The notes under the pieces: model-generated
Seen by the model: the letters and a program-made list of their open reading frames with translations, nothing else
What the model was told of the DNA's origin: nothing
Database searches by the model: none
Assembly: GCA_903813345.2 (NCBI GenBank)
Contig: CAIIXF020000006.1
Coordinates: 31,662,024 to 31,726,023, forward strand
DNA length: 64,000 nucleotides
Origin: Owenia fusiformis
Taxonomy: Eukaryota > Annelida > Polychaeta > Sabellida > Oweniidae
Reading direction: 5' to 3'
Shown here: positions 1-58,436 of the stretch, in pieces
How positions within the stretch are numbered: the first letter of the stretch is position 1
Layout of the letters: every line of letters starts with the position of its first letter
Translations under genes and position numbers: made by a program

Positions 1-1770
1 TGAGATATTGTAGATGATTTTGAAAAAAAATTGTTCAATTTGTTTGAAGCAAGATTAAACAAGAACACAAATGTGTACAAAATGTCCCCACCTATGGGTG
101 ATCCCGTCAAATGGTTATCCTAAAAATGAGTAGACAAGACTTTACCGACACAATTTGAGGACGGAAAATCCAAAATGGCCACCTTAAAATTTACCGTCAC
201 ACAGTTAACCAGAAAACATGTAAACAATACTTTACAGACAAGATTTTAGGACGGAAAATCCAAAATGGCTGCCTTGAAATTTATCCAGAATGCCAAAAAA
301 CTACTCTGTTCTAGATTTTCATACTAAGAATCATCCCTGAAAATTTGAGATTGATCTACCAAACGATTCACCTGGAAATGAGTAGACAAGACTTTACAGA
401 CAAGATTTTAGGACAGAAAATCCAAAATGGCTGCCTTGACATTTACCCAGAATGCCCAAAAACTAATCAGATCTAGATTTTCATACTAAGAATCATCTCT
501 GAAAATTTGAATTTGATCTACCAAACGGTTCACCTGGAAAGCCTGGAAATGTGTAGACAAGACTTTACAGACAAGATTTTAGGACGGAAATCCAAAATGG
601 CTGCCTATTCATAATAGTTTTACATATTATACTATATATGTTATGGAAGGTTTAGGATTTATGAAATATCCTGAAGAAAATATAATATATCTACCTCGGG
701 GTCCCATAAATGAAAGAATGTAAATATCATTTGCTTTTCAAAGATGTTTCTTATATCCAAAACTGACCATGACATACAAAGTATTTATCCCATACTTAGA
801 TAAATGTCAGGGAGAAAGCACAGTACATAAGGCATTAACATGACAAAATGTCACCACCTAATTGCTCATAATATTATGAGTTCAATCTTAAGTCTGATTT
901 GAACTTGTAATGATTTTGGAAAAATAAATAAAGCCTTTTGACCCTGAGAAGGTCATTGAAGGTGAAATCTCAAATCTAAAGTCAGATTTGAACTTCTGAG
1001 ATATTGTAGATGATTTTGAAAAAAAATTGTTCAATTTGTTTGAAGCAAGATTAAACAAGAACACAAATGTGTACAAAATGTCCCCACCTATGGGTGATCC
1101 CGTCAAATGGTTATCCTAAAAATGAGTAGACAAGACTTTACCGACACAATTTGAGGACGGAAAATCCAAAATGGCCACCTTAAAATTTACCGTCACACAG
1201 TTAACCAGAAAACATGTAAACAATACTTTACAGACAAGATTTTAGGACGGAAAATCCAAAATGGCTGCCTTGAAATTTATCCAGAATGCCAAAAAACTAC
1301 TCTGTTCTAGATTTTCATACTAAGAATCATCCCTGAAAATTTGAAATTGATCTACCAAACGATTCACCTGGAAATGAGTAGACAATACTTTACAGACAAG
1401 ATTTTAGGACAGAAAATCCAAAATGGCTGCCTTGACATTTACCCAGAATGCCCAAAAACTAATCAGATCTAGATTTTCATACTAGATCATCCCTGAAAAT
1501 TTGAATTTGATCTACCAAACGGTTCACCTGGAAAGCCTGGAAATGTGTAGACAAGACTTTACAGACAAGATTTTAGGACGGAAATCCAAAATGGCTGCCT
1601 TGACATTTACACAGAATGCCCAAAAACTAATCAGATCTAGACTTGTATACTAAGAATCATCCCTGAAAATTTTAAATTGATCTATTAAACGGTTCACCTG
1701 AAAGACAAGACAATTTACAGACAAGATTTTAGGACGGAAAAATCCAAAATGGCCGACAATAAAAAAGTGA
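1..1770. repeat. Direct duplication built from ~165 bp tandem units
   Basis: The first ~600 bases recur almost exactly at about 997-1600 (offset 996). Inside each copy a degenerate unit of roughly 165 bp repeats, recognisable by the words GACAAGATTTTAGGACGG and CCAAAATGGCTGCC. No coding potential is seen. The second copy lies inside a hairpin-ended dispersed element starting near 831, so the first copy is probably the tail of another such element cut by the window edge. Confidence 0.8.
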
Positions 1771-2345
1771 TTATCGAGTTTTTGCTGATTTCTTTTTACC
1801 AAATTATCACATATAACTACTGTTAACAATAAGATAGGCTTTTACAACAAAGTACACCTGAATCCACATCTGTATGCACTCATAAGTTATCCCTGAAAAT
1901 TTGAAGGTGATATCTGTAGCGGTTTTGGAGAAAACTGCCGGACGTACGGACAGACAGACGGACAGACAGACAGACGGACCGACAGACGGACCAACAGACG
2001 GACGCGCCTAGGCCGACAATATGGGGATATAAAAATACCTTTTTGACCTTGAAAAGGTCAAATCTATTGAGAACTTGTAGATGATTTTGAAAATAAATTG
2101 GTCGATTTGAAGCAAGTTGAAAAATACCTTTTTGACCTTTTTTGAACTTGAAAAGGTCATTGAAGGTCAAATCTTATATATAAACTTCTGAAAACTTGTA
2201 GATGATTTAAAAAAAATTGAAGTCAGTCTAAACAGTATTTGTTACGTTATTGGAAGTTGTAAGAATTTGTTACAGACGCCAACTGCCAACCACCGTAAAA
2301 AAACGGAGACCATAACAATATGTCACCACTTTTTGGTGGTGACAT
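831..2345 (+). mobile_element. Hairpin-ended dispersed element, full-length copy
   Basis: The left end reads GGCATTAACATGACAAAATG followed by TCACCACC. The right end is the hairpin GTCACCAC...GTGGTGAC preceded by CATAACAATAT. The same two ends bound copies at 45.25-45.78 kb (inverted) and 55.95-56.79 kb; end fragments lie at 27.80, 59.3-59.75 and 63.2-63.35 kb. The body carries a repeated segment with AAGTCAGATTTGAACTTCTG and GTAGATGATTTTGAAAA, and a perfect DR4 site (AGGTCA TTGA AGGTCA) at 2154-2169. There is no transposase ORF, so it is non-autonomous; the superfamily is unknown. Confidence 0.7.
1934..2012. repeat. (GACA/GACG)n simple repeat
   Basis: A run of CGGACAGACAGACGGACAGA type words inside the hairpin-ended element, followed by GCGCCTAGGCCGACAATATG and GGGATATAAAA. 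Such tetranucleotide runs are common components of invertebrate repeats. Confidence 0.8.
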
Positions 2346-2522: not shown

Positions 2523-4565
2523 CTTATATGTTATTTGCCAGACTGGTTGCGTCCCAGGGCTTTGTTTCTCCCACTGTTGTATGACTATTCCTCGTTCTTC
2601 CACCAGGCTGAGGCAAACATCTCGCATTAGGTTACTAACAAGGGCAAGGTTTCGTAGACTGAATGAATCCAAGTGCCTGAAACAAGTGCAAATAATTGAA
2701 ATCAGGTCTTAATGTTGATCAAAAGGTATCATCATTCAAGTATATTAATTCGCATTACAGTTATTTAAATGGTTAACCCTTAAACAGTTAGGGGGGCAGA
2801 TCCTAAGGATTTTTTCGATAACTTTTTTCGTAGTTTGTCTTTTGATCTGAAACTTTCTGGCCTTTCTTAAAATTGAATAAGGCATGTTTCAGCGAAAAAA
2901 TATGACTCTAACCGCCCATAGAATGAAAGTTAGAGCTGGTCAAAGTTACTGAAATACCTGAACTGTCAGTATTGACTTGAAACGATAAACCCCTATGTTC
3001 TTAGAATATAAATTTCTTCATCATTAATGGCTCAATATAATAAAACTAAGCTCAGAATACTGGCAATTGAATAAGCCTTCCAATGTTACCTAATACATCC
3101 TCCTATGATTGGTTGTTTCCTAGATCATAGGGGGCTGCCCCCCCCCCCCCTAACCATTGGTGTAATTCTCTATAACCTAACCGTTTAACCTCTTGACAAC
3201 CCAGAGTGACAAGATTTCTCGTCACCTCAGAAATGACCTTGAAACCCAGAGTGACGAGATAATCTGTCACAAAAATGTTCACTAAAATTGCTCTTATTTG
3301 AACAATTTTTATCCGATTTACACAAAAAAAAATTTTAAATGTCTAGAAATGATCTCCATCGTCTAATTTTTTTAGATTGAACATCACCTGTTGTGTATGT
3401 ATGTAGTTAAATGTCAAAAGCAGTCAAATATGAAAAATGATCTGGTTTCAACCTATTTTAAAACCTGGAATTCAAGAGGTTAAGGGTTAACACCCCTTGT
3501 TAATATGACACTACATGTATAACTGTGTGTACATCCTGCTTTCGATGTCAAGATATGAACTTTATCCAAAGAAGAATAACAGCCCCTCCCCCTGTTTATA
3601 TACTGTTTCATTAGCAGCAGGTGATTTTACTTCCAATTATAACTGTCATGTGAATTAACATACATTTAGTTAACATTCATATTAACCTATACAAACATAG
3701 GATAAAAACTTCTTTTATCAAATATAGTGAAAATTGTAATTTTGTTTTACCTTGCTATTGCTTGTATTATTTCAAAGGGAAGACTAGTGAGAATGTCCAG
3801 TCTTGGCCTACTTGGGGTCCCCTCCCTGCTAGACTCTGCACTAGATAAGCCACCATTCAAGTGTATTTCTGCATCATAACTTGTGCTTGTTAGCATTTCA
3901 GGTGTCTTTGTCTTCTTTGGTATCACATTAGGGCTCTCTGAAATCTCTTCCAAAGATCTATCAGATTCATCAAATGAGTGCTGGTATCTCTTGATTTTGT
4001 GCTCTTCAGGAATCTTGGGTTTGAGTCCAAAACTTTCAGTTGCACTGCTATGGACAACAGTTGATCCTTTTTCATTTGGGTAAAATCGTCTAATTGAATA
4101 AGTGCAGCCATAATGAGCAAGAGGGCATCGTTGTTCCAGCCATCCATTTAGACAGCTGTGAATATCATTGTGAACATTTCTAAAGTGCCATGGGTATTCA
4201 TCTCTGCGGAACTCCTGGGCACAGAGAAATGTATACATAGCCTTGGGTTTCACTTGATAACGTGTCACTGATTCAACATTCAGATCTAGAGCTAGCATCT
4301 GATGCAATGTTATTGGTGCGATTGGAGGAGTAGGTATAACTGAGTTGTCACCTGCTGATTTATTCATAATTGGTGTTGATGCAAGGTTTCTTTCATCAGT
4401 TTTATAACTGCAGTCATTCAATGAGGAGACTGAATCATTAGCATCTGCTGATTCAATGTTTGAAATATCACAGACATCACTTTCATTCATTGCACTAGTA
4501 TCACTGAGTATTGCACCTGGTTGCTCAATGCTGATAGACGAGTAGCAGCCGGCAATATTTGAAGA
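2523..4565 (-). CDS. FBXO30: FBXO30/FBXO40-like F-box protein, 3' part (F-box exons)
   Basis: C-terminal half of an SCF ubiquitin-ligase substrate receptor. Exon 3 runs from about 4565 (edge of the inserted 8 kb element) down to 3751. It holds the conserved FBXO30 block with FRRDEYPWHFRNVH, LNGWLEQRCPLA and YGCTY, then the start of the F-box, LTSLPFEIIQAIA. Its donor is phase 2 (AG|GTAAAA). Exon 4 runs 2676-2523 (acceptor TTTCAG) and continues the F-box with HLDSFSLRNLALVSNLMRDV and ends in WQITYK at a phase-0 donor AAG|GTACCT. Vertebrate FBXO30 continues here with a VWRFST-type block. No such exon lies in 1-2520, so the last exon is off the left edge; reading through would give a 22-residue unrelated tail. 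Family assignment is firm; whether it is the pre-duplication ancestor of FBXO30 and FBXO40 is inference. Confidence 0.88.
3189..3479. mobile_element. Small TTAA-flanked MITE, 291 bp
   Basis: TTAA stands directly outside both ends (3185-3188 and 3480-3483). The ends are inverted: CCTCTTGA left and TCAAGAGG right. The internal phrase CCCAGAGTGACGAGAT occurs twice with small variation. A TTAA target is typical of piggyBac-type elements. It lies in the intron between FBXO30 exons 3 and 4. Confidence 0.6.
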
Positions 4566-4578
4566 GATTAAACCTCCG

Positions 4579-6380
4579 AAAGGTTACTGGCTAATCTTGG
4601 TACCGTTGGAAAGCTTAACTTCTGCACTAACATGCTTGATGACTAAAAACATTCAGAACAGGTGGAAAAGTTCTTTAAAATGCTGGTTTCCATGGTAACT
4701 GCAAAGTTGTCACTATTAAGGCCCGTGAATATACTTTTGAACATATCTAGATGACGCTTTGACCATATGTCTTGATAAAAGTATCACTGTAAAGATAATT
4801 TGACACAGTTTTTGAAAAAATGTATTTTTTGGATTATTGGACTCATTGTGATGTCATAGAACTAGAAACGGCTGATTTTTCGGTGATTTTGACAGAATTT
4901 AAACATGTATCATATGCTTCTGTAAGCTACAATACTTAAAGTAAACTATGTTTTGTCTTTAAGTGATTTAACACAACACATACTATTAGTATATCGAACA
5001 AACAATATCACTATGATTGTGATGTCATAATACAAAGAGATAGAGGCCTACTTCAAATATCTAATATCGAGATTATTGACAAATCCAGATATATTTGAGG
5101 CATTTATACATTTTATACATTTTCAATGATAACTTAAAAAATCCTCAACAATATAATGTTATGTTTAATATATCGATGAAAAGGTTACTGGCAAATCATG
5201 GTACTGTTGGAAAGCTTAGCATCTGCACTAATATGTTTGACAACTAAAACAATTCAGAACAGGTGAGAAAATTCTTTAAAATGCTGGTTTCCATGGTAAC
5301 TGCAATGTTGTCACCATTAAGGCCCATGAATATACTTTTGAACATATCTAGAGAACACTTTGACCATATGTCTTGATAAAAGTATCACTGTAAAGGTAAT
5401 TTAACAAACTTTTTGAAAAAATGTATTTTTTGGATTATTGGGCTCATTGTGATGTCATAGAACTAGAAACGGCTGAATTTTCGGTGATTTTGATAGAATT
5501 TAAACATGTATCATATGCTTCTGTAAGCTACAATACTTAAAGTAAACTATGTTTTGTCTTTAAGTGACTTAACACAACACATACTATTAGTATATCGAAC
5601 AAACAATATCACTATGATTGTGATGTCATAATACAAAGAGATAGAGGCCTACTTCAAATATCTAATATCGAGATTTTTGACAAATCCAGATATATTTGAG
5701 GCATTTATACATTTTATACATTTTCAATGATTAAAAAATCCTCAACAATATAATGTCATGTTAAATATAATTATCGATGAAAAGGTTACTGGCTAATCAT
5801 GGTACCATTGGAAAGCTTAGCATCTGTGTTAACATGCCTAATCCCTAAAATAAATCAAAACAGGTGAGAACATTTTTAAAAATGATGGTTTCCATGGTAA
5901 CTGCAATGTTGTCACTATAAAAGTCCATAAATATACTTTTGAAGATATCTAGGGAACGCTTTGACCATATGTCATGTTTAAAGTTTCATTGTAAAGGTAA
6001 TTTAACAAACTTGTTGAAAATACATATTTTCCGGGGTTTTGGGCTCATTGTGATGTTATATAAATAGAAACGCTTGATTTTTGGTGATTTCGACATAATT
6101 CACACAAGTACATATCATGCGCTTTTGTAGCCGATAGTAGTTACAGAATAAACTATTTTGTGTAAATACATGATTTAGGACATGTTGTACAACACTTATA
6201 TGTATTAGTATATCAGACAAGTAATATCATTGTACTTGTGATGTCATAATTCAAAACTTTTAGATAAAGGTATATTTCAAATATATCGAGATTTTTGACA
6301 TATTCGGATAAATTTGGAGTAATCTTAAGATAATTTGAAAAGCTTCAACAATATGTCACGTTCGATACATCGTCGAAAAG
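4579..6380 (+). repeat. Three tandem ~601 bp units (left arm)
   Basis: The phrase AAAGGTTACTGG starts at 4579, 5180 and 5781, a period of 601. The first two units are nearly identical and the third is more diverged. Inverted versions form the right arm (about 11340-12610). Confidence 0.85.
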
Positions 6381-7099
6381 ATAATTCCACAACCCCATCA
6401 TAAACACATATCTAATTTTTTTTGTGATTTCTAGCAAATGTTATAATATGTGTCAAGTTTTTCTGGAGGCATATGGTACTTATATGTAAAATTATGATAA
6501 AAAGCTTCTAAAAACAACATGTATGTGTATCAGTATGTCAGGCAAGAAAAGTTTAGATATTTAATTGAGACTTTAGGGTGAGATTTACTTAAAGCGCTCG
6601 GTTCCATAGTAACCATTTAATGTTTTCTATATATTCAGAGATAACAGCATAGTGCAGAGTGGGCATATCTCAGTTGTTCTTGTCCAATTGAGTTAATATA
6701 TATATATAATAGGATTTATTAGTACTGATGCCCTTTTAGGGCCAAACATACAATTTACAACATACAATTTTCATTAACAGTAAAAATAGCAATAAAATAA
6801 AGAAAATAGGATTACATTCTTCAAATGACATATTTGAAGACTATTAGTTTATGGTTCATTATTCATGCTACAACGTTGTTGATTGAATTAATATTGGTAC
6901 CCTATGAAAGCAAAAAAATATTTCTGATGTTTTTATGAAAACAATATTCAAATAAGCTAATTTTCATATTAATAATGGCATCATGACCCGTACTTTTGAT
7001 ATAATAACACCACTATCAATTGATCACAGCCGTGGCCTGACTTTGTTTACATTTCCTAGGAACATATCATATTTCAGTAAAAATGGCGACCCTACCTTA

Positions 7100-8830
7100 C
7101 AGAAATAGCGATAATTAGTGCTTTAACAGTCAATATTGGCTCATTGATAGCGCTTAGTGATTCCCTCGTATAAACGGGTTGTGCTTAAATAGCCAAAATT
7201 GATTTCTTTATAGCCCTTAGCAATTTCCTTATATGCTCGGGTTGTGCTTAAATAGCCCCAATTAGTTTCTCAATAGCCCTTAGTGATTCCCTTGTATCCT
7301 CTAGATTGGTTCTTAATAGCCCCTAATGATTCCCTAGTATGCTCAGGTTGTGCTTAAAATGTTCAATTGATTTCTTAATAGCCCTTAATGATTCCCTAGT
7401 ATGCTCTGGTTGTGCTTAAATAGCCCCAATTAGTTTCTTAATAGCCCTTAGTGATTCCCTTGTATCCTCTAGATTGGTTCTTAATAGCCCCTAATGATTC
7501 CCTAGTATGCTCAGGTTGTGCTTAAAATGTTAAATTGATTTCTTAATAGCCCTTAATGATTCCCTAGTATGCTCTGGTTGTGCTTAAATAGCCCCAATTA
7601 GTTTCTTAATAGCCCTTAGTGATTCCCTTGTATCCTCTAGATTGGTTCTTAATAGCCCCTAATGATTCCCTAGTATGCTCAGGTTGTGCTTAAAATGTTC
7701 AATTGATTTCTTAATAGCCCTTAATGATTCCCTAGTATGCTCTGGTTGTGCTTAAATAGCCCCAATTAGTTTCTTAATAGCCCTTAGTGATTCCCTTGTA
7801 TCCTCTAGATTGGTTCTTAATAGCCCCTAATGATTCCCTAGTATGCTCTGGTTGTGCTTAAAATGTTCAATTGATTTCTTAATAGCCCTTAATGATTCCC
7901 TAGTATGCTCTGGTTGTGCTTAAATAGCCCCAATTAGTTTCTTAATAGCCCTTAGTGATCCCCGTATATGCTCGGGTTGTGCTTAAATAGCCCGAATTAG
8001 TTTCTTGATAGCCCTTAGTGATTCCCTAGTATGCTCGGGTTGTGCTTATAAGTTATATAGCCCCAATCAGTTTCTTAACAGCCCTTAGGGATTCCCTAGT
8101 ATGCTCGGGTTGTGCTTAAATAACCCGAATTAGTTTCTTGATAGCCCTTAGTGATTCCCATATATGCTCGGGTTGTGCTTAAATAGCCCCAATCGGTTTC
8201 TTAACAGCCCTTAGTGATTCCCTTATATGCTCGGGTTGTGCTTAAATAGCCCCAATTAGTTTCTTAATAGCCCTTAGTGATTCCCTAGTATGCTCGGGTT
8301 GTGCTTAAATAGCACCAATGGGTCTCTTAATACCCCCCAGTGATTCCCTTATATGCTCAGGTTGTGCTTAAATAGCCCCAATTAGTTTCTTAATATCCCT
8401 TAGAGATTCTCTAGTATACTCGAGTTGTGCTTAAATAGCCCCAATTAGTTTCTTAATAGCCCTTAGTGATTCCCTAGTATGGCCGGGTTGTGTGTAAATT
8501 GCCCCAATTAGTTTCTTAATAGCCCTTAGTGATTCCGTAGTATGCTCGGGTTGTGCTTAAATAGCCTCAATTAGTTTTTAAATAGCCCTTAGTGATTCCC
8601 CAGTATGCTCGGGTTGTGCTTAAATAGCCCCAATTAGTTTCTTAATATCCCTCAGTGATTCCCTAGTATGCTCGGGTTGTGCTTAAATAACCCCAATTAG
8701 TTTTTTAATATCCCTTAGTGATTCCCTAGTATGCTCAGGTTGTGCTTAAATAGCCCCAATTAGTTTCTTAATAGCCCTTAGTGATTCCATAGTGTGGCTT
8801 GGTGGTGTTTAAATAGTTTCTTTAGGTTCA
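7100..8830. repeat. Minisatellite of ~63 bp units with a 168 bp higher-order block
   Basis: The unit contains TTCTTAATAGCCCTTAGTGA, TTCCCTAGTATGCTCGGGTT and GTGCTTAAATAGCCCCAATT. From about 7297 to 7980 a 168 bp higher-order block recurs: TCCTCTAGATTGG starts at 7297, 7465, 7633 and 7801. The array is AT-rich, non-coding and central to the 8 kb foldback element. Confidence 0.9.
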
Positions 8831-9624
8831 ATAATAGTCATTAATAATTCCCTAGTATGCCTTGGTGGTGCTAAAGGCCCCTTCATGATTCACTAGTATT
8901 CTTATTCCCTCAATGCTTTCATAGTATGACTTGGTGGTGCTTTAATAGCCCTCATTGGTAGCCCTTAATGATTTCCTTGCATACCCTAGTGTTATCTAAA
9001 TCTTGTGGTGCTTTAGTAAATGTCCCAAATTAATCTAATTAAATAAAAAAAGCATTTGACCTCACATGAACAATGTATGTAAGGCTAAGTTGAGTTGTAT
9101 GATGAATTTGGCTAAGATAAAGCTTTAAAAGTTTTTTTTGTAAAAGAAATACCAATGCAAGGATTGGACAAAGGACACACTAGTTCAAGAATAAATATCA
9201 AATGTTATTTACGAGCCAATTTAAAAAAAACACGTGCGGATGATTGCTATGCATTGGTGTGAATGATCTCTTATTAAAAGATACTCGCAACCTCTGAAAG
9301 TTCAAAAAACACTTTTTGAAATTTAAAAAATAGGTTTCACATATCACACTTTGAACATTGGGTAAGACTACAATATAAGCCAAAGAAGTTTAAAGTTAAT
9401 ATGGGGCCTTTAAAAATGTCAATGTTAGCATTGTGTTTCAATGATGAAAATTATTTTGACAGTCAAATCTTAAATGAAACAAAAGGTTTAGAGTATAATG
9501 TTAATCCCCCCTTTAAAATAGGTTTCGTTTTAGGGGGTTAATCAACTTTATTTCCTCGAGTTATAATTTTCACCAATAAATACTTCTTTAAATACACAAA
9601 TTAATCTAACTCTGGTCAATTTAA

Positions 9625-10135
9625 AGGACAACTGAAATAGCTTTTCTCAAATTGCAGCTACAAAAATGCGGTTTTCTCCATTGTAAGCCCAACGTAAAGT
9701 TCTTGCGATAGCCATTATAAAATAAATGTTAGATAACTGCTAACGGTCATAGATAACGAAATAAAACTAACTGATCAATCAAATTGGCCCCCACGTGATT
9801 AGTAACGTCATATACAAAATATAGCTTTGGTTTATTGGTTTCTTAGTAATCACAACGTCACGACAACCATAGGATTGTTGTGTAAACAAATAACAAAACA
9901 TTCTGGCATTATGGCGTCATAGTCTAATGGACCAAAACGGGCCACGTGGGGACCAGTGAGAGATCACGTGGGGGCCAATAACGTCACAACCAATTCGAAT
10001 ATTGCTTATTCAGCAGCTATAACGATCGTTAGTGTGAAATAATTTTCACACTACTGATGAGAAAACATGTCCAAATACATCTATCAAAAAATTATATTGA
10101 TTCCTTTAGGTTAAAAATACCATTTCATATCTGCT
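9625..10135. mobile_element. TTAA-flanked MITE, copy 1
   Basis: TTAA flanks both ends (9621-9624, 10136-10139). The ends form imperfect inverted repeats: AGGACAACTGAAATAG left and AGCAGATATGAAATGG when the right end is reverse-complemented. Internal marks are CCCCCACGTGATTAG, GGGCCACGTGGGGACCAG and GATCACGTGGGGGCC, all carrying the CACGTG E-box. A second copy in opposite orientation lies at 38745-39218. Nested inside the 8 kb foldback element. PiggyBac-like by target site. Confidence 0.8.
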
Positions 10136-10504
10136 TTAAGCTACTATATAGTATTTGTGATGTTCTTATGTGTTAGAAATAAATATTAAACATTATTTTA
10201 AATATGAGGTCAAATTGTAGAGGGCGTCACCTTTAGGCCCAATTTCTCTTTTCAATTTCTTTTTCTAGGGCCAGGACCAACTTAGAGTGACCTAGGTCAC
10301 AAAATATTTCTCTAATTTTGGCCTTGGTGCTGACCTATTACACAGTCTGTAAGTCTTGATAAATCTTGCATCGGGCAAAACTATGCTATGGCATGAAATG
10401 CAATTTTAGTATTGGTGCAACATGTATAGTATTTAATTTTGATTTCAACAGTAAATAAATGTACCTAGATCTAACATATTCATCACTTCATAGTAAAAAT
10501 ATAT

Positions 10505-11182
10505 ATCTGGTGTCCCAAAAAATGAGACACTTTTTAACAAGTATTTTCTGGGCAACTGATGAACCAAATTCACTAAAAATTTGCACAAAGTAGCCTAAGA
10601 GTATCATTTGCAAGTTGTAAAAATCTAAAAAAGATCAACCAAATATTCTGTGATCAGTCAAAATAGCTTGTCTGTGTGGCATGACTAATTAATTTGTTTC
10701 ATTCTTCCAAAATATCCAAAATCCATTTATTCTCAAAATTCATTGGAGATGATATTGTTAGAATAAATACGGAAAGGTATTTTTGCTTGGAAATGGGTTA
10801 ATAAGTAACTTTTACATTGATATTGGATATTTTGACATACTGTGTTTAATTTACAAATACACACATAATATATGAGAGATTTCTTACATATTCATGGTGC
10901 TAGCAGAAGAAGAATTTGGTTCATCTATTCCTGAGAAATTACTCGTCAAATTTTTTCCCGTTTTTTGGTGCAAACGATATAAAGTTCTCAGTGCGTTGCT
11001 CCGGTATGGGATCTTTTGACATTCTACGTTGAATTAATTAGTACTCACATTTACTTGATCTTTTTCATAGTTTTATACGTTGCTAATGATACTCTTGGGC
11101 TACTTTGTACAAATTTTCAGTGAATGTGGTTGCCGAGAAAATACTTTGTCAAAAAGTGTCTCATTTTTGGGACACCCGATAT
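10505..11182. mobile_element. Mariner-like foldback MITE, ~680 bp
   Basis: Inverted ends about 100 bp long: the left reads GGTGTCCCAAAAAATGAGAC ACTTTTTAACAAG, and the right end reverse-complements to GGTGTCCCAAAAATGAGACA CTTTTTGACAAAG. Both arms continue through AATTTGCACAAAGTAGC / AATTTGTACAAAGTAGC. The flanks are TATATA on both sides, compatible with a TA target. No transposase. Nested in the 8 kb element. Confidence 0.75.
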
Positions 11183-12647
11183 ATATAACACCATGCTGTA
11201 TTACAATTATTTCATTGTAAATATGTAAACTTAACGTCAAAATTAATCATAATGAATAGTTTGCATATTTTTCTAGAAATACCAGAAATTATTTTTGCTT
11301 TCATATGGTACCAATGTCATTATGATCTCATAATGATTAATATAAACTGTTACTATGGAAACGAACGATTAAAATAATTTTTTGCTTAAAAATCTTAAAA
11401 AACACCAGTGCATCCGTAAAGCTCAATATGCAAGCTTTTGATCAGTATCAAAGCCCAAAAATACCTTCTACCTTTCTCATTCAATATCTGGATTTGTTAA
11501 AATTCTGGGTACTAGATACATGTGTTTGATTTAGGCCTCTATCTTTTTGCATAATGACATCATAATCACAATGATATTGTTTGCCTGATATATTAATACA
11601 TGTAAGTGTTGTGTTCAGTCACGTATAAACACAAAATAGTTTATCTCCAATACTATTAGGCTACAAAAGCACATGATATGTATTTGTATTTTGTAAAATC
11701 ACCAAAAATCGAGCGTTTCTATTTCTATGACATCACAATGAGCCCGAAACCTCAAGAAATGTGTATTGTTTACAGGTTTGTTAAATTAGCTTTACAATGA
11801 TAGTTTTAATATGATATATGGTCAAACCGTTCTCTAGATATCTTCAAAAGTATATTCCTGGACTTAATAGTGACATCATTGCAGTTACCATGGAAACCAT
11901 CATTTTTAGAAATGTTCTCACCTGTTTTGATTTATTTTAGTCATTAGGCATGTTAACACAGATGCTAAGCTTTCCAACAGTACCATGATTAGACAGTAAC
12001 CTTTTTATAGATATATTAAACATAACATTTAATGTTGAGGATTTTTAAGTTATCATTGAAAATGTATAAAATATAATATAAATGTCTCAAATGTATCTCG
12101 ATTTGTCAATAATCTCGATATTAGATATTTGAATTAGGCCTCTATCTCTTTGTATTATGACATCACAATCATAATGATATCGTTTGCCCGATAATATACA
12201 TATAAGTGTTGTGTTAAGTCACTTTTAAACTCAAAATAGTTTTATTAGATAATGTAGATTACATTAGCACACGACACGTGTCTAAATTCTGTCAAAATCA
12301 CCGAAAAATCGAGCGTTTTTAGTTCTATGACATCACAATAGGCCCGAAAATCCTAAAAATATGATTTTTCAAAAGGTTTTTAAATTACCTTTACAGTGGT
12401 ACTTTTATCATGATGTATGGTCAAAGCGTTCTATATATATGTTCAAAAGTATATAATTTGTCCTTAATACTGACAACATTGCAGTTACCATGGAAACCAG
12501 CATTTTTAAGAACTTTTCCACCTGTTCTGAATTTTTATAGTCTTCAAACATGTTAGTGCAGGTGTTTAGCTTTCCAACGGTACCAAGATTAGCCGGTAAC
12601 CTTTTGGAGGTTTAAACTTCTTTATTTGAAGACTTTATGAGATCTGG

Positions 12648-14010
12648 CTACTCATCTATGAAGCCTGAATCGTTGAACTCCTCTGTTTGCTTCTTTTGTT
12701 TGCTAGGGGTACTATTCACAGCCAGGTTAATTGCTTCACTGAGGGATTCTGTAGTTTGCTTTGCAGAGCGGTAAAGATCACTGCACAAGCTACGAGAAAG
12801 TGCAGGTGGTGTTCTCTCTATGACATCACTATCATCATCAGATATTGTATGAGACGTGTCATTTGACTTTGGATTATTACTTATACCATTAGAACTAGTT
12901 GATTGGTTGTGAAGAGGGACAGCAGGAAAATATTTTGTGAGTTTGTTGCGCATAGCTCTCCTAGTACTGCGGGGAGCTTTCAATGCTGAATTTAACATGC
13001 GTTGGTCACGCAAAGCTAATGCAACATCTAACTGACCATATTTGGCATGTAGATTGCCTTGAACGAATGGCACCCTGGATTTCCTCTCACTGCAATGGAT
13101 TGGCCAACGATTCCACTCCATGGTGCAATAAATAACACTTGCTGGACAAACATTCAAATGTTCGTTTATCTTGTGGCGTGAAAGCTCTACTGGACAACCA
13201 TTTGTATGGTTAGTACATTGAACTATAGCCTTGAGGCAAATTTCTTCATGGTCTGCTGCCTTACATTTATGAAATATCAATCCACATTCATTGGAGCATG
13301 ACATCCTTTCACAACATTGAGGAGACAGTTTTTCCATACACTTCATCAAGTAACATTTATTACAATGTTCATGAGCTGATTCTTCATCTTTAGCAATGCA
13401 GTCAAGGTAATGCTTGCGGACCTGAAATGAAAAAATTAAATTCTGGAATTTTAGGAGAACTGCAGAAATTAGTACAAGCATTATTAGTTATTCTTTATCT
13501 GTATTGAACATCTTAATCCTCAATTTAAAGATCTGTTTCATTGAAAATGTACATCAAAAAATGAATCTAGGATAGCTGATTCTAATATTATCCCTAACGT
13601 TATGACTGAGCCAGTCACTTTTAGATAATATACAGGAAATGTTGACACATGTGAGCATTTTTTAGAAATATTCAAATAGTGCAGTCTGTCAATGATTATT
13701 ATCAAGTGAAAATGATGCATTTAAATCAATTTACTGGTGTCCAATATTGTTTTATATTGACAATGAAATTGAGTGTTGAAATATTGAGACTGGCACATAT
13801 CAAGGAAATATTTTCTACTAATTCAATGTTGGCAATATAAATTCATGTAATGTAGAAGTCTATGATTTCACATACCTGACAAAGATGAAGTTTAACTCCA
13901 CATTTGTGTTTACATTCAACCAGTTGACAACTGACGCCAGGAACACCTGCAACCTCGCAATGCTCATTGCGGTATGTCCTACAGTGGTAATGGTCCATAT
14001 TGTTGCTCAT
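12648..14010 (-). CDS. FBXO30: FBXO30/FBXO40-like F-box protein, 5' part (TRAF-type zinc-finger exons)
   Basis: Exon 1 begins upstream at an acceptor (14049). The likely start ATG is 14010-14008 (MSNNMDHYHC), matching where FBXO30 proteins begin, and coding runs to 13876 (phase 0). Exon 2 runs 13421-12648. It encodes Cys/His clusters, then the diagnostic NVCPASVIYCTMEWNRWPIH followed by QLDVALALRDQRML, a hallmark of FBXO30. A Ser/Asn/Asp-rich linker follows. The frame meets TAG at 12650-12648, five codons before the target duplication of the 8 kb element; beyond the element the same frame resumes as exon 3. Two tandem zinc modules are visible (exon 1 and early exon 2) where human FBXO30 shows one. 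The protein would act as an SCF adaptor; the vertebrate relatives act in muscle and mitotic control. The allele may be broken or may splice out the element. Confidence 0.88.
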
Positions 14011-31125: not shown

Positions 31126-33897
31126 GAGGATTGAGGATTAAGAATGTCAGAAAACATTTTTGGCAGAATGAGGAGGATTTAGAATGCCAGAATGGCAGAA
31201 CGGAGAGTGTTCCACTTACACAGGTTCTACTGTATTTACATAATAATGTTATAAAGGAGCATGTAGGTTATCGCAAACAACTTCAGACAATTCTAACTTG
31301 AATTATGAATATTTTCTGACCATGAACATGGGTATATTTTTAGATCTATTCATTATCTTCAAGAGAAGCAAATATAATGATTAATCAGACCTTAGTGATA
31401 TTAAAGGGAATGGCCCAATCAACATACTTTTTACTAAAAATGTTGACCTAATTTTTTCCAAAGATGCAACCTTTAATTATATTGTTGAATGCATAATTAG
31501 AATATGCTTTGAGACATGTTCTATTTCCTAGGAGGAAAAGTGGATTGCTCCAGGGTGACCAAAATGAACTGAAACCAATGGATAGCATGAATTTTTTCAA
31601 AGGGGAAATAACATGGGGAACACTAATCTTAGGGGAATTCAGTTTTCTTTTCAAGAGCTATTTGATACATTAAAATAAAGAATAGTAATACATTAAACAT
31701 TGTTAAAATGATTGCATTTTTGGTGAAAATGAGGTCAACAACTTTGAAAAAATATATTGATGGGTTGATTGCTAGTGAAATATCTCCGAGTCCGATTGAC
31801 TTTATTATCCCTATATACCTGTCTTCATGGTCAGAAAATAGTCATAATCAAAGATATAACTGTCTGAAATTGTTTGTGATAACTTACCTGAACCTTTCCA
31901 GGTCAAATCAGGAGAGACAAAATTATTTCCACCAAATTTTTGACATGTCTTCAAATACGATAATATTTTCTTCATAAGATAGAGTGTCACTTGTGAAATT
32001 TATTGATTGACCTGAGATCGTACCATATCTTTATGACATAGAAGCGAAATACCCATATTGAACTTTAATGATGTTTGTTTAATTGTTGTTTGCCACTTTT
32101 CGACAATTATCAAAATTTGGGGGTTTAGGGGAGGCGTACAATTAGGTTAAAAATTCACCTGATTCAGACTATCCTTAAATGAGCACTGATTCACCCAAGA
32201 GCATAACTTTTTCAAAACATGTAAGTGTTATTTTTGGACCACTCACATTAATGTTTCGTCTAATTTTCCCTCAGAGTTTCATCATCATTGTCCAAATCTT
32301 AGGCCATATTTGTTGAGATTCTTTGCAGTTGGAAAAGATTCGGCATTAGGTGTTATAAGTCCCAGAGCACGATAAATAAAAAAATAACAACAAAATGACA
32401 TAGAACTGATTTTCTCCTGTGTGTGTCAGCCTTGGTCTACCAAATTGCTATTCAGTAGGAAGAAACTCATTTTTCAGTTTCCATTTTAGTTTCCTGACAA
32501 ATAGAGCGATCATCCCAGGATTTTTACTATGATCTATGTGTCGCCATAGCAACTTCTGTTTTAGGGAACAATAGAACAATAGAAAAGATAACTTTACCAT
32601 AATTTTAATCATCCCACATTGTAGACATATTTAGAATTAAAAATATGAAGAGAATGACAAAACCTCTTAAAACACATTTCTTAGGAAACAAATAGTGTCG
32701 TATTCTTGTTACTATGGCAACAGAGTTTTTTCTTTTTGTCATTTTTGTCATACAGATTACCTATCATACCAGGACCAAATCCTGAAAATTTGAATTCAGT
32801 ATCTTCATTAGTATCTTAGATATATAGGTTTCTTAGTGTCCCCTGCAGATTTTATCGGATAAAATAAGGAAAATGCTCTGAAGAGTGTTGCCCAAGGATG
32901 CCACGTAACAGTTCTGGTATTTTTGAGGTCCCAACCCTCTATTCATGGGAATAGTTAACCATTGTAAAGCTTCTCAGGGTTAACTGACAGAATTGATTGC
33001 ATCTTCAACTAAGAAGACAATAAAATGTTAAAACCAGAAGAAAACCACACCAACTTTCTTCTATTTACCAGGGGTGTAGGGCACTATAAAGTCATATTAA
33101 AATCACAAAATAGTACCTCATCACTATAATAGATGTATTACAATATCACACATAGCTTGGGAATGTTGTTAGAATACTACTTTGAGCTGTTTAAGTTATC
33201 ATATTTTGCTTGAAGCTACAAATATAAAATAAGCAAGAAAAAAATGACAAAAAATTGCATATTTTTTTCTAATTAATTGTATTTTTCCGAAACCAACAAA
33301 GATATCAACCTATAACTTAAGGGTAGTATTCATCTCTGTACTAACAATGTATGCTGTAGAACTCAGAACAATAGATATATATCCTTTGAGTTATGAACTA
33401 ATATTATAGTACCCTAAAATAATTTCCTAGGGGGGTAAAAACGCTAAAATTCGTGACCACCCCGTTGAGCTGTCATCTTTTAATATCTTTATCAGCATGA
33501 AAACCTGATCCAGAAAAAATAGGTCTGTAAAAAATGCCTCAAAAACCCTTTCCCTTGAGATATTCTGAAATTGGAACCTGTCTATATGGAGTGTACATCC
33601 TAACACTTCAAACAACATTTATAAATTGTACTGATATATATGAAATAAAAAGAATCAACGTTAATCACACCGCAGTCACATTTCCTCCGGCGATATTGCG
33701 GTCAGTAACATTTTTACGGTCGCCTTGGAACTTCTGCGGTCGGATACTTTTATTTGCAGTCACATTTCCTACGGCAGTCGCATGGCAACAGCCTGTTGAT
33801 TACTACGGGGACCGTAGAAATGAACAAATATTATAACTCCGAGTTATAATTTCTACGGCTAGGTTTAATACAGTGAACCCCCGGGGTGTTACTTATA

Positions 33898-38715: not shown

Positions 38716-38744
38716 AGTAATTAAATGTTCTTATAAGTTATTAA

Positions 38745-39218
38745 AGCAGATATGAAATGGTATTTTTAACCTAAAGGAATCAATATAATTTTTTGATAGA
38801 TGTATTTGGACATGTTTTCTCATCAGTAGTGTGAAAATTATTTCACTCTAACGATCGTTATTAGCTGCTTAATAAGCAATATTCGAATCGGTTGTGATGT
38901 TATTGGCCCCCACGTGATCTCCCACTGGGCCCCACGTGGCCCGTTTTGGTCCATTTGATCATGACGTCATAATGCCATAATGTTTTGTTATTTGTTTACA
39001 CAACAATCCCAACCGAAGCTATATTTTGTATATGACGTTACTAATCACGTGGGGGCCAATTTGATTGATCAGTTAGTTTTATTTCGTTATCTATGACCGT
39101 TAGCAGTTATCTAACATTTATTTTATAATGGCTATCGCAAGAACTCTACGTTCGGCTTACAATGGAGAAAACCGCATTTTTGTAGCTGCAAGTTGAGAAA
39201 AGCTATTTCAGTTGTCCT
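38745..39218. mobile_element. TTAA-flanked MITE, copy 2
   Basis: Inverted copy of the 9625-10135 element, again with TTAA outside both ends (38741-38744, 39219-39222), ends AGCAGATATGAAATGG and CTATTTCAGTTGTCCT. 474 bp. It retains the CACGTGGGGGCC E-box region. Confidence 0.82.
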
Positions 39219-39222
39219 TTAA

Positions 39223-41395
39223 TTGCGCATGTGTTATGATAATTTGAACCAATTAAATTGCTGGATTTGATGCGCATGCGCTAAAAACCGAACAAATTGC
39301 CTCTAGTGAGCCTCAGTCTTTTATTGTGTCAAATGTAAACGTTCTTTTGCAGACAGAAAATTGACAGATTACCTTTTAACTTTAACCTTTGATGTTTTAA
39401 TATTCTATATTTCTACCGGACTTCTTGCTGAATATCATATAATGTTATAACTTGATTTGGATTTTGGACGATTGCCTGATTGATCCATTCTGAAATTTTG
39501 ATTGTGATTCATGATTGATTGGCAAGAAAAATAATTCCTATTGTTTTCCACCGAAGTCTAAATGTTACAGCATAAATTATAATAAGTGGGAAGTAGAATA
39601 AAGGATGGACGGGGCCTGGGGATTGGTGCCCCTACCAGCCCCACCAATTCACAATCATACACATAAGAGACAAACACACCTAGGCTCCAGGCCGTGGATG
39701 GAAATATAAAACTATTTAGGGCACAAAATGGTATTTAATAGACCGATATGTAGTGAATCCGCCATGTATTGAAGGTAAAACAATCTGCATTATTGTTACT
39801 TCTATCAATACATGGATTGTGCAATGTAAAAGCAAAAGCAATCAAAAATGTGCATATCAATCGTGAATATCTCTCGGTTCAAAGCTTATTTCCAACAGAA
39901 TCGTGTCAAAATATGTGTCTGAGTTATACATTATAAGATCGCAAACTCTTACCAATTATCAGCCGAATGGCTGATTTTCAACGAAATGTCCGTAAGACAA
40001 CAGCCCTGGGTCGCACCTATGACGAAAATAAGCTTGAATATCCCTCCCCTAAATAATATTGATAATCACATTTATGCGTGCGTGCGCAGCTCATCCACTG
40101 AACAAAACGCCACTTCCCGCTGAAATCACCGGGTATTGATTTTTCCCTTGGACAAACCCAATTCTAAGGCAATCCTGATATAAATTACACAGTTACTCAC
40201 CTAAGAGTCATCTGCAGCTCTTACTTGTAACCTCTGAGCACTGCTGATTAATCCAGTGGCATCCATAAGAGTAGAATACTTCAATATAAAGTTAAGAACA
40301 TTCGTTTGTACGAGAGGCAATCAAAATTTATTTTATACATTTTATGAAAAAAATATTCTTTAAACTCTTCTAGGTATATAAGTGCACTCTTTGTGCAAAG
40401 GAGTGATTAATATTTGAAAAGTAACATGTGACTCTATTGAGGATTGCATCACAATTCTGAACATATAGACTGACATTAAGGAAAATATACTGTACATACA
40501 AAGTATACAAACTAGCTCAAACTAGCTCTAGTCCTGTTACTGATTGATCTTAATCTACCCAAGGATGGGTATCTCAAGAAAGACGCAGTGCTGAAGATGT
40601 CCTTGATCTACCCCAACAATTCAATTTCAAACTATCCAACAAATTCATAGCGAATGTAAACAAACCCTTACCATACCATACTGTTCATTTATTACGTTGG
40701 CACTTTGTCTGGTATTTACAAAATGGCAAGTTTGTACTTATGTACATGTATACATATGATTTATCTATTTCAAAGTCTGTGTCTGATCTGTAGGCCTATA
40801 GGGAAGCCTTTAATCGTGTGATATAGGTCACTTGGTAATCGTAAGGGCTGAAACTAAAAAACTGAATTCAGCAGCTTACTTTATATCTCTTTGTGTTCCT
40901 AACTTCAGTGGCCTTTGCTTGTGAACTATGGAAAGTTTCAGCTGCCTCTGTGCCTATCAAGACTTCTTTTTATCAGTCGAGGTGGACATTTTCTACAAGA
41001 AACTAAAATGGCAGTTTTAACGGAAAATAGCGAATCATCCGAAAATTTCTTAGCTGAATTCAGTATTTCTGTTTCAGTCGTTCAGTCCAGCCATTGAAAT
41101 AGGTGACATGTGGTTGTTTGAGGAATGATAACTTACAACCTCACCTGTAGTTCATGGAAATTTGTAAGCGCGAACAAAATTGCATGGGATGCTGCCATTT
41201 TGGATCTTTTGGTTGGTTGACATATCTTTATCTTCCCCTCCAAGATGATGACAAACTTAGATAAAAAAAAGTTTGAAATGCTTCCAGAAAAGCTCCCAGT
41301 TATTGTGAATACACTTTTCATAGTTCAGTCTTGATGCATTCATAATACCCCTGGATTATTATGTTATTCATTAATTTTATTTCTAATCTGTTTAG
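39223..41395. other. Upstream region of TMEM209
   Basis: No conserved coding sequence was recognised. The acceptor TCTAATCTGTTTAG at 41395 opens the first coding exon of TMEM209, so at least one non-coding 5' exon should lie here or further upstream. Short open frames (40915-41097, 41133-41321) show no recognisable motif. Confidence 0.5.

Positions 41396-41415: not shown

Positions 41416-58436
<17,021 letters not shown>

Follow-up and report, generated by a model that had tools for sequence, protein, structure and literature searches.

We have found a foldback DNA transposon of 8,124 bp inside a coding exon of the FBXO30 gene of the annelid Owenia fusiformis. The element lies in a stretch of 64,000 nucleotides of the genome assembly, called the window throughout (G000:C6:31662024-31726023, contig C6), in which FBXO30 occupies the minus strand. 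A deposited, unnamed Owenia fusiformis protein product, P0001, continues across the insertion site as if the element were absent. We consider it probable that the insertion is polymorphic, with P0001 representing the exon without the element and its gene model drawn from alleles that lack the insertion.

An earlier note on this DNA, made from the letters alone, had named the gene as FBXO30, and profile matches to zf-TRAF_2 (E 7.8e-30) and F-box_4 (E 1.8e-16), together with a match to the solved structure 2yre, "F-box only protein 30" (E 6.8e-18), bear this out. The element divides one exon into two parts, both on the minus strand. The 5' part, at 12662-13421, encodes the TRAF-like zinc finger and a linker and was placed by domain matches and identity with P0001. 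The 3' part, at 3751-4534, encodes a C-terminal conserved domain and the start of the F-box and was placed by reading frame, alignment of relatives and identity with P0001. Across the junction the deposited protein reads ...NDSGF|SIEQPG..., not GFIDD|IEQ. When 200 x 190 pairs of cuts were scanned, P0001 was reproduced by only four, which are mutually equivalent, and each of these removes 8,127 bp, that is, the element and one TGA. The ends of the four cuts are TCATAG..CTA, CATAGA..TAT, ATAGAT..ATC and TAGATG..TCA, and none is GT-AG. With the element and one TGA removed, the sequence reads for 1,833 nt and 611 codons with no stop and is identical to residues 1-611 of P0001. At protein level, the empty site equals the occupied site minus the element and one duplicate, as in an insertion polymorphism, and the two exon halves were one coding exon before insertion. 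The proteins of five relatives taken from genomic contigs (P0007, P0009 and P0011-P0013) run from the zinc finger to the F-box in one frame. They diverge from the others where exon 4 of Owenia ends (19 of the 120 listed proteins were aligned) and, judged by their ends, appear to be unspliced single-exon frames. Among these 19 the linker is not alignable across phyla, and the exact junction is therefore tested by no relative.

The cuts that yield P0001 coincide with the ends of the element, a 12-bp inverted TAGAYGAGTAGC at 4535-4546 and 12647-12658 with TGA on either side. An 11 of 12 inverted match at a fixed cut has a chance probability of 6e-6, or 2.4e-5 across the four registers. As written in the window, the left terminal repeat is TAGACGAGTAGC (4535-4546, plus strand) and the right is TAGATGAGTAGC (12647-12658, minus strand). 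The TGA target site duplication stands beside the left end at 4532-4534 and beside the right end at 12659-12661. Repeats and duplications were placed by the P0001 cuts and by other copies in the genome, which likewise delimit the whole element at 4535-12658 on the plus strand, corresponding to C6:31666558-31674681.

The earlier note had placed the edges elsewhere, taking a 10-bp repeat, TATTTGAAGA, for the target duplication. The sequence confirms that this repeat occurs on both sides, at 4556-4565 and 12623-12632 (both plus strand), and that the FBXO30 frame reads each as TCT TCA AAT A. However, TATTTGAAGA sits at equal positions inside the ends of other genomic copies, 11 right and 10 left, and so belongs to the element. 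The true edges lie outside it, at 4535 (21 bp further left) and 12658 (26 bp further right), and the real duplication is the 3-bp TGA. The equal frame at the two motifs is a one-in-three coincidence. Within 30 x 30 positions, a repeat of 10 bp has by itself a chance of about 0.002, and in the window TATTTGAAGA also occurs at 6831 and, reversed, at 31948. The idea that removing the element and one duplicate restores the frame is right, the duplicate being TGA and the edges 4535 and 12658. Similarly, the in-frame TAG at 12650-12648 is present as described, but it is not a later mutation of the gene; it forms bases 9-11 of the terminal repeat TAGATGAGTAGC, which also contains a weak GT. A nested model, with a foldback element and its 6-10 bp duplication inside a 57-bp outer hairpin, was rejected, since other copies show the outer ends and the inner motif as one element.

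The same ends recur at unrelated sites together with target duplications, as expected of a mobile element. In a search of the genome with the right end, all 18 scored candidates matched, 16 of them at 97% or better, window copy included. The 10 left and 11 right ends of other copies that were examined have the same sequences, TAGACGAGTAGCAGCC... (left) and TAGATGAGTAGCCAGATCTC... (right); the exceptions are C8, whose left end is damaged, and some ends with single or few changes. Perfect 3-bp duplications flank all eight other copies in which both ends are recognisable (TAA, TAT, TAG, AAA, TAT, TAA, CAA and, in C6c, ATA). Twelve long loci were processed, of which eight gave a complete copy and four (L038, L046-L048) did not, and no pair of exact ends was found in six further loci, namely the long L074-L077 and L071 and L072, which have the most diverged right ends. 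The nine complete copies, counting that in the window, are 471-8,661 bp long. Their longest stop-to-stop frame is one of 146 amino acids made of 21-residue repeats, and no transposase was found in them, although no family search was run on the frames. Because no frame exceeds 146 amino acids in the nine, the family looks non-autonomous. The 146-residue frame belongs to copy L040 and evidently derives from a 63-bp minisatellite. The shortest copy, a miniature of 471 bp (G000:C6:22304126-22304596, L045), has both ends and an ATA duplication, and its flank reads as tandem repeats.

The earlier description of a foldback DNA transposon inside a former single coding exon stands, with a structure of about 8 kb and arms that are 83-84% alike over about 1.1 kb. 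Repeat comparison resolves the left arm (4565-6316, plus strand) into three tandem units of about 601 bp and the right arm (11484-12618, minus strand) into two inverted units of about 600 bp, so that the element has the long terminal inverted repeats with internal repetition of a foldback transposon. The 63-bp minisatellite fills the middle at 7118-8989. A nested repeat, about 510 bp long (9625-10134), occupies a TTTAA site that is empty in all five other copies with sequence there. It belongs to a large family: a first look at the genome gave 648 candidates, and the 40 that were scored reached at least 96%, the best others being 96-97% alike. A second member lies in the window at 38741-39246 and is 88% like the first. 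An inner inverted-repeat element with GGTGTCCC... ends, at 10499-11186, falls in the stretch common to other copies.

We would explain the deposited protein as follows. Presumably the assembly retained that haplotype of the sequenced male which has the insertion. The uninterrupted exon would have been supplied by RNA of other haplotypes, or by the gene model of a purged haplotig that was lifted over, and the model would then have been forced to bridge 8,127 bp by a join that is no ordinary splice site. The available part of the published account gives sperm of one male as the source of the genome, a scaffolded and de-haploidized assembly, and RNA from developmental stages and adult tissues. 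It names STAR, Trinity/GMAP, Mikado, Augustus and PASA among the tools behind the gene models, which were lifted over to the chromosome version (PMC9977687). We infer that P0001 is one of the models of that annotation (PMC9977687). Compared with the whole genome, P0001 gave six matches from seven scored candidates, all at one locus, C6:31660483-31676033. A paralogue or haplotig in the assembly was rejected as the source of the protein on this ground, and the gene model therefore bridges the element in the same sequence. One TGA is gone together with the element, which speaks for an allele free of the insertion from the outset. In the carrying allele, translation would stop at the TAG of the terminal repeat after F299-I-D-E, as counted from the exon coordinates, and the predicted product is a 302-residue protein without the F-box; this allele is likely loss-of-function. 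The suggestion that the gene is broken would apply at most to the insertion-carrying allele.

Several observations weigh against this explanation. The empty site is seen only as protein, in one deposited isoform and beside one collapsed assembly, so that polymorphism is deduced; the whole-genome search with P0001 found no empty copy in the assembly. Several tools of the published methods usually favour GT-AG junctions, and the join that gives P0001 is not one. The age of the insertion is a further point. Compared over 2.5 kb, the window copy is 2.7-3.4% diverged from four others and has a tip branch of about 2%. Its private substitutions number 32 (1.3%, uncorrected) across the 2,390 gap-free columns shared by these five copies, those of the other four 9, 12, 32 and 42. 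The nested 510-bp repeat, too, is absent from the five other copies in which it could be scored. If the private changes and the nested repeat arose in place, the insertion is not young, but both would also be explained if an older copy had moved here by cut and paste. Had the private changes arisen at this site while the neighbouring gene was dead, its 1,833 nt of coding sequence would be expected to hold 5.5 disabling changes; none was seen (P 0.004). This suggests either that the copy arrived lately with older changes or that FBXO30 kept working.

A working gene is what would follow if the element were cut from the FBXO30 mRNA without the spliceosome, triggered by the inverted arms in the manner of SOS splicing. 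We regard as unlikely such removal of an 8-kb foldback transposon from an annelid FBXO30 mRNA, exact to the original base. SOS splicing is described in the available part of a review (PMC13247085), and its substrate, an inverted-repeat transposon in an exon, is what the window contains. The element has long inverted arms, and its outermost ends, joined in a 92-nt stretch that leaves out the inner 8 kb, fold into a stem (-25.6 kcal/mol, z -3.16). The join that gives P0001 is non-GT-AG, and the coding sequence is intact beside an element with private divergence. In the genome, one CAAP1-family match among six candidates lies above the cut-off, at 35.8 bits. What counts most heavily in the other direction is the junction itself. 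An RNA cut made at the ends of the element would leave both TGA copies and give GFISIE, whereas P0001, with one copy, has GFSIE, the exact pre-insertion sequence, and RNA cutting has no simple reason to restore that sequence. Removal at the RNA level keeps the small probability we allow it because the nested repeat and the private changes speak against a very young insertion.

The earlier note had also raised a new spliceosomal intron, with a donor, GA|GTAGCC, at 12651 in the right terminal repeat and an acceptor, CTATCAG, before 4530, which would be composed of the left end, the duplication and the exon. The acceptor is pyrimidine-rich and this GT-AG join does keep the frame open, but the intron is unused in P0001, the one deposited protein seen. 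By an approximate frequency matrix, the gene's three other donors in the window reach 10.15, 6.3 and 6.06 bits, whereas TGA|GTAGCC has -1.06 bits. This is below the median GT, since 1755 of the 3238 GT sites on that strand equal or exceed it. Nor is the family introner-like. Among the ten copies with flanks, only the one studied here lies in a long through-frame (537 codons, against 34-123 in the nine others). The background for this comparison was 540 positions drawn from the same 18 flanks, with a maximum of 397, and the frame test covered 10 of the 18 right ends. With all four registers of the deposited junction non-GT-AG and so weak a candidate donor, we find a new intron very improbable.

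An assembly error that placed the element into the exon deserves as little credence. The assembly was scaffolded and de-haploidized, according to the available text (PMC9977687), which leaves some room for such an error, but the copy has a perfect 3-bp duplication and intact ends, like the eight others with both ends recognisable. Least credible is a fixed broken gene with P0001 as an annotation artefact that has no RNA or DNA behind it: read-through into the insertion does reach a TAG at once, but an artefact is not expected to land on the exact edge of the element plus one duplicate, no disabling change is present in the 1,833 nt of FBXO30 coding sequence, and RNA-seq supports 99.29% of the published transcripts, a figure for the whole set and not for FBXO30 in particular (PMC9977687).

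The remaining FBXO30 exons lie on either side of the split one. Exon 1 runs from its ATG at 13876-14010 (minus strand) to a CAG|GTATGT donor and is identical to the start of P0001. The exon that follows the split one, encoding the F-box, was placed at 2523-2676 (minus strand) by domain match and reading frame. The last exon is outside the window, beyond its start, as located by comparison of P0001 with the whole genome. Two candidates occur there, C6:31660483-31660728 and C6:31661322-31661528 (L030), both with an acceptor and their own stop. The far one is in P0001, the near one is 39% like it, and the two are possibly duplicated alternative terminal exons. By eye, a pair of long, nearly identical direct repeats with AAAATGGC motifs was noted beside the 3' part of the gene, at window positions 1-2300; the two are about 1 kb apart. 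Elsewhere in the window, a tandem repeat array at 47810-48474 is open in several frames on both strands. For seven open reading frames in the remainder of the window, Pfam gave nothing at E 0.01, and a search of Rfam at the gathering threshold gave no matches.

These results show that a large coding insertion can pass for an intron in a deposited gene model, and that the sign of this is a pair of non-GT-AG ends equal to a transposon plus one duplicate. They also add a foldback family with 3-bp duplications, present in about 18 copies in Owenia. If the insertion is only a polymorphism, this model annelid has a candidate segregating FBXO30 knock-out. If removal at the RNA level were true, a conserved gene would tolerate a large coding insertion while being annotated like an ordinary intron-bearing gene. 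The site is also a clean natural test case for RNA-level rescue of transposon-hit genes in an animal that is neither a nematode nor a mammal.

The target duplication of Galileo falls within 7-10 bp, the length found in foldback elements of the Mutator and P types (Tetris, Tm1 and Galileo), whereas it is 3 bp in the window copy and the eight others. Tetris, a foldback element of Drosophila virilis, resembles the Owenia element in its long inverted repeats of internal tandem units, its variable middle and its lack of coding capacity, as far as the available text describes it. It differs in duplications of 8-10 bp and units of about 220 bp, against 3 bp and about 600 bp here (PMC4079207). By analogy with what is described for Tetris, the 63-bp minisatellite is a possible seed of satellite DNA. 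The available account of Tm1, a Mutator/foldback element of root-knot nematodes, shows likenesses in its composite inverted repeats, in one member that has a nested insertion and in an empty paralogous site. In contrast, Tm1 mostly has 8-10 bp duplications, and some members have a putative Mutator-like transposase, whereas the Owenia family has 3 bp and no transposase was found in its complete copies (PMC3169594). SOS splicing of DNA transposons from animal mRNAs, as the available part of the review presents it, likewise concerns a transposon with inverted repeats that lies in an exon, and a product of the gene that lacks it (PMC13247085). Unlike there, the Owenia product equals the pre-insertion sequence to the base, and its production by carriers is hypothetical. 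Introners share with our case a transposon-like element in an exon, the frame kept on removal and, in many families, terminal repeats or a short duplication. In the available text, however, the family medians for length are 30-654 nt, and the elements are removed as introns, mostly with GT and some with GC or GA donors (PMC9860276). The Owenia element, in comparison, is 8 kb long, has one exonic copy among ten with flanks and offers no strong donor. The mechanism at FBXO30 is probably an ordinary insertion polymorphism.

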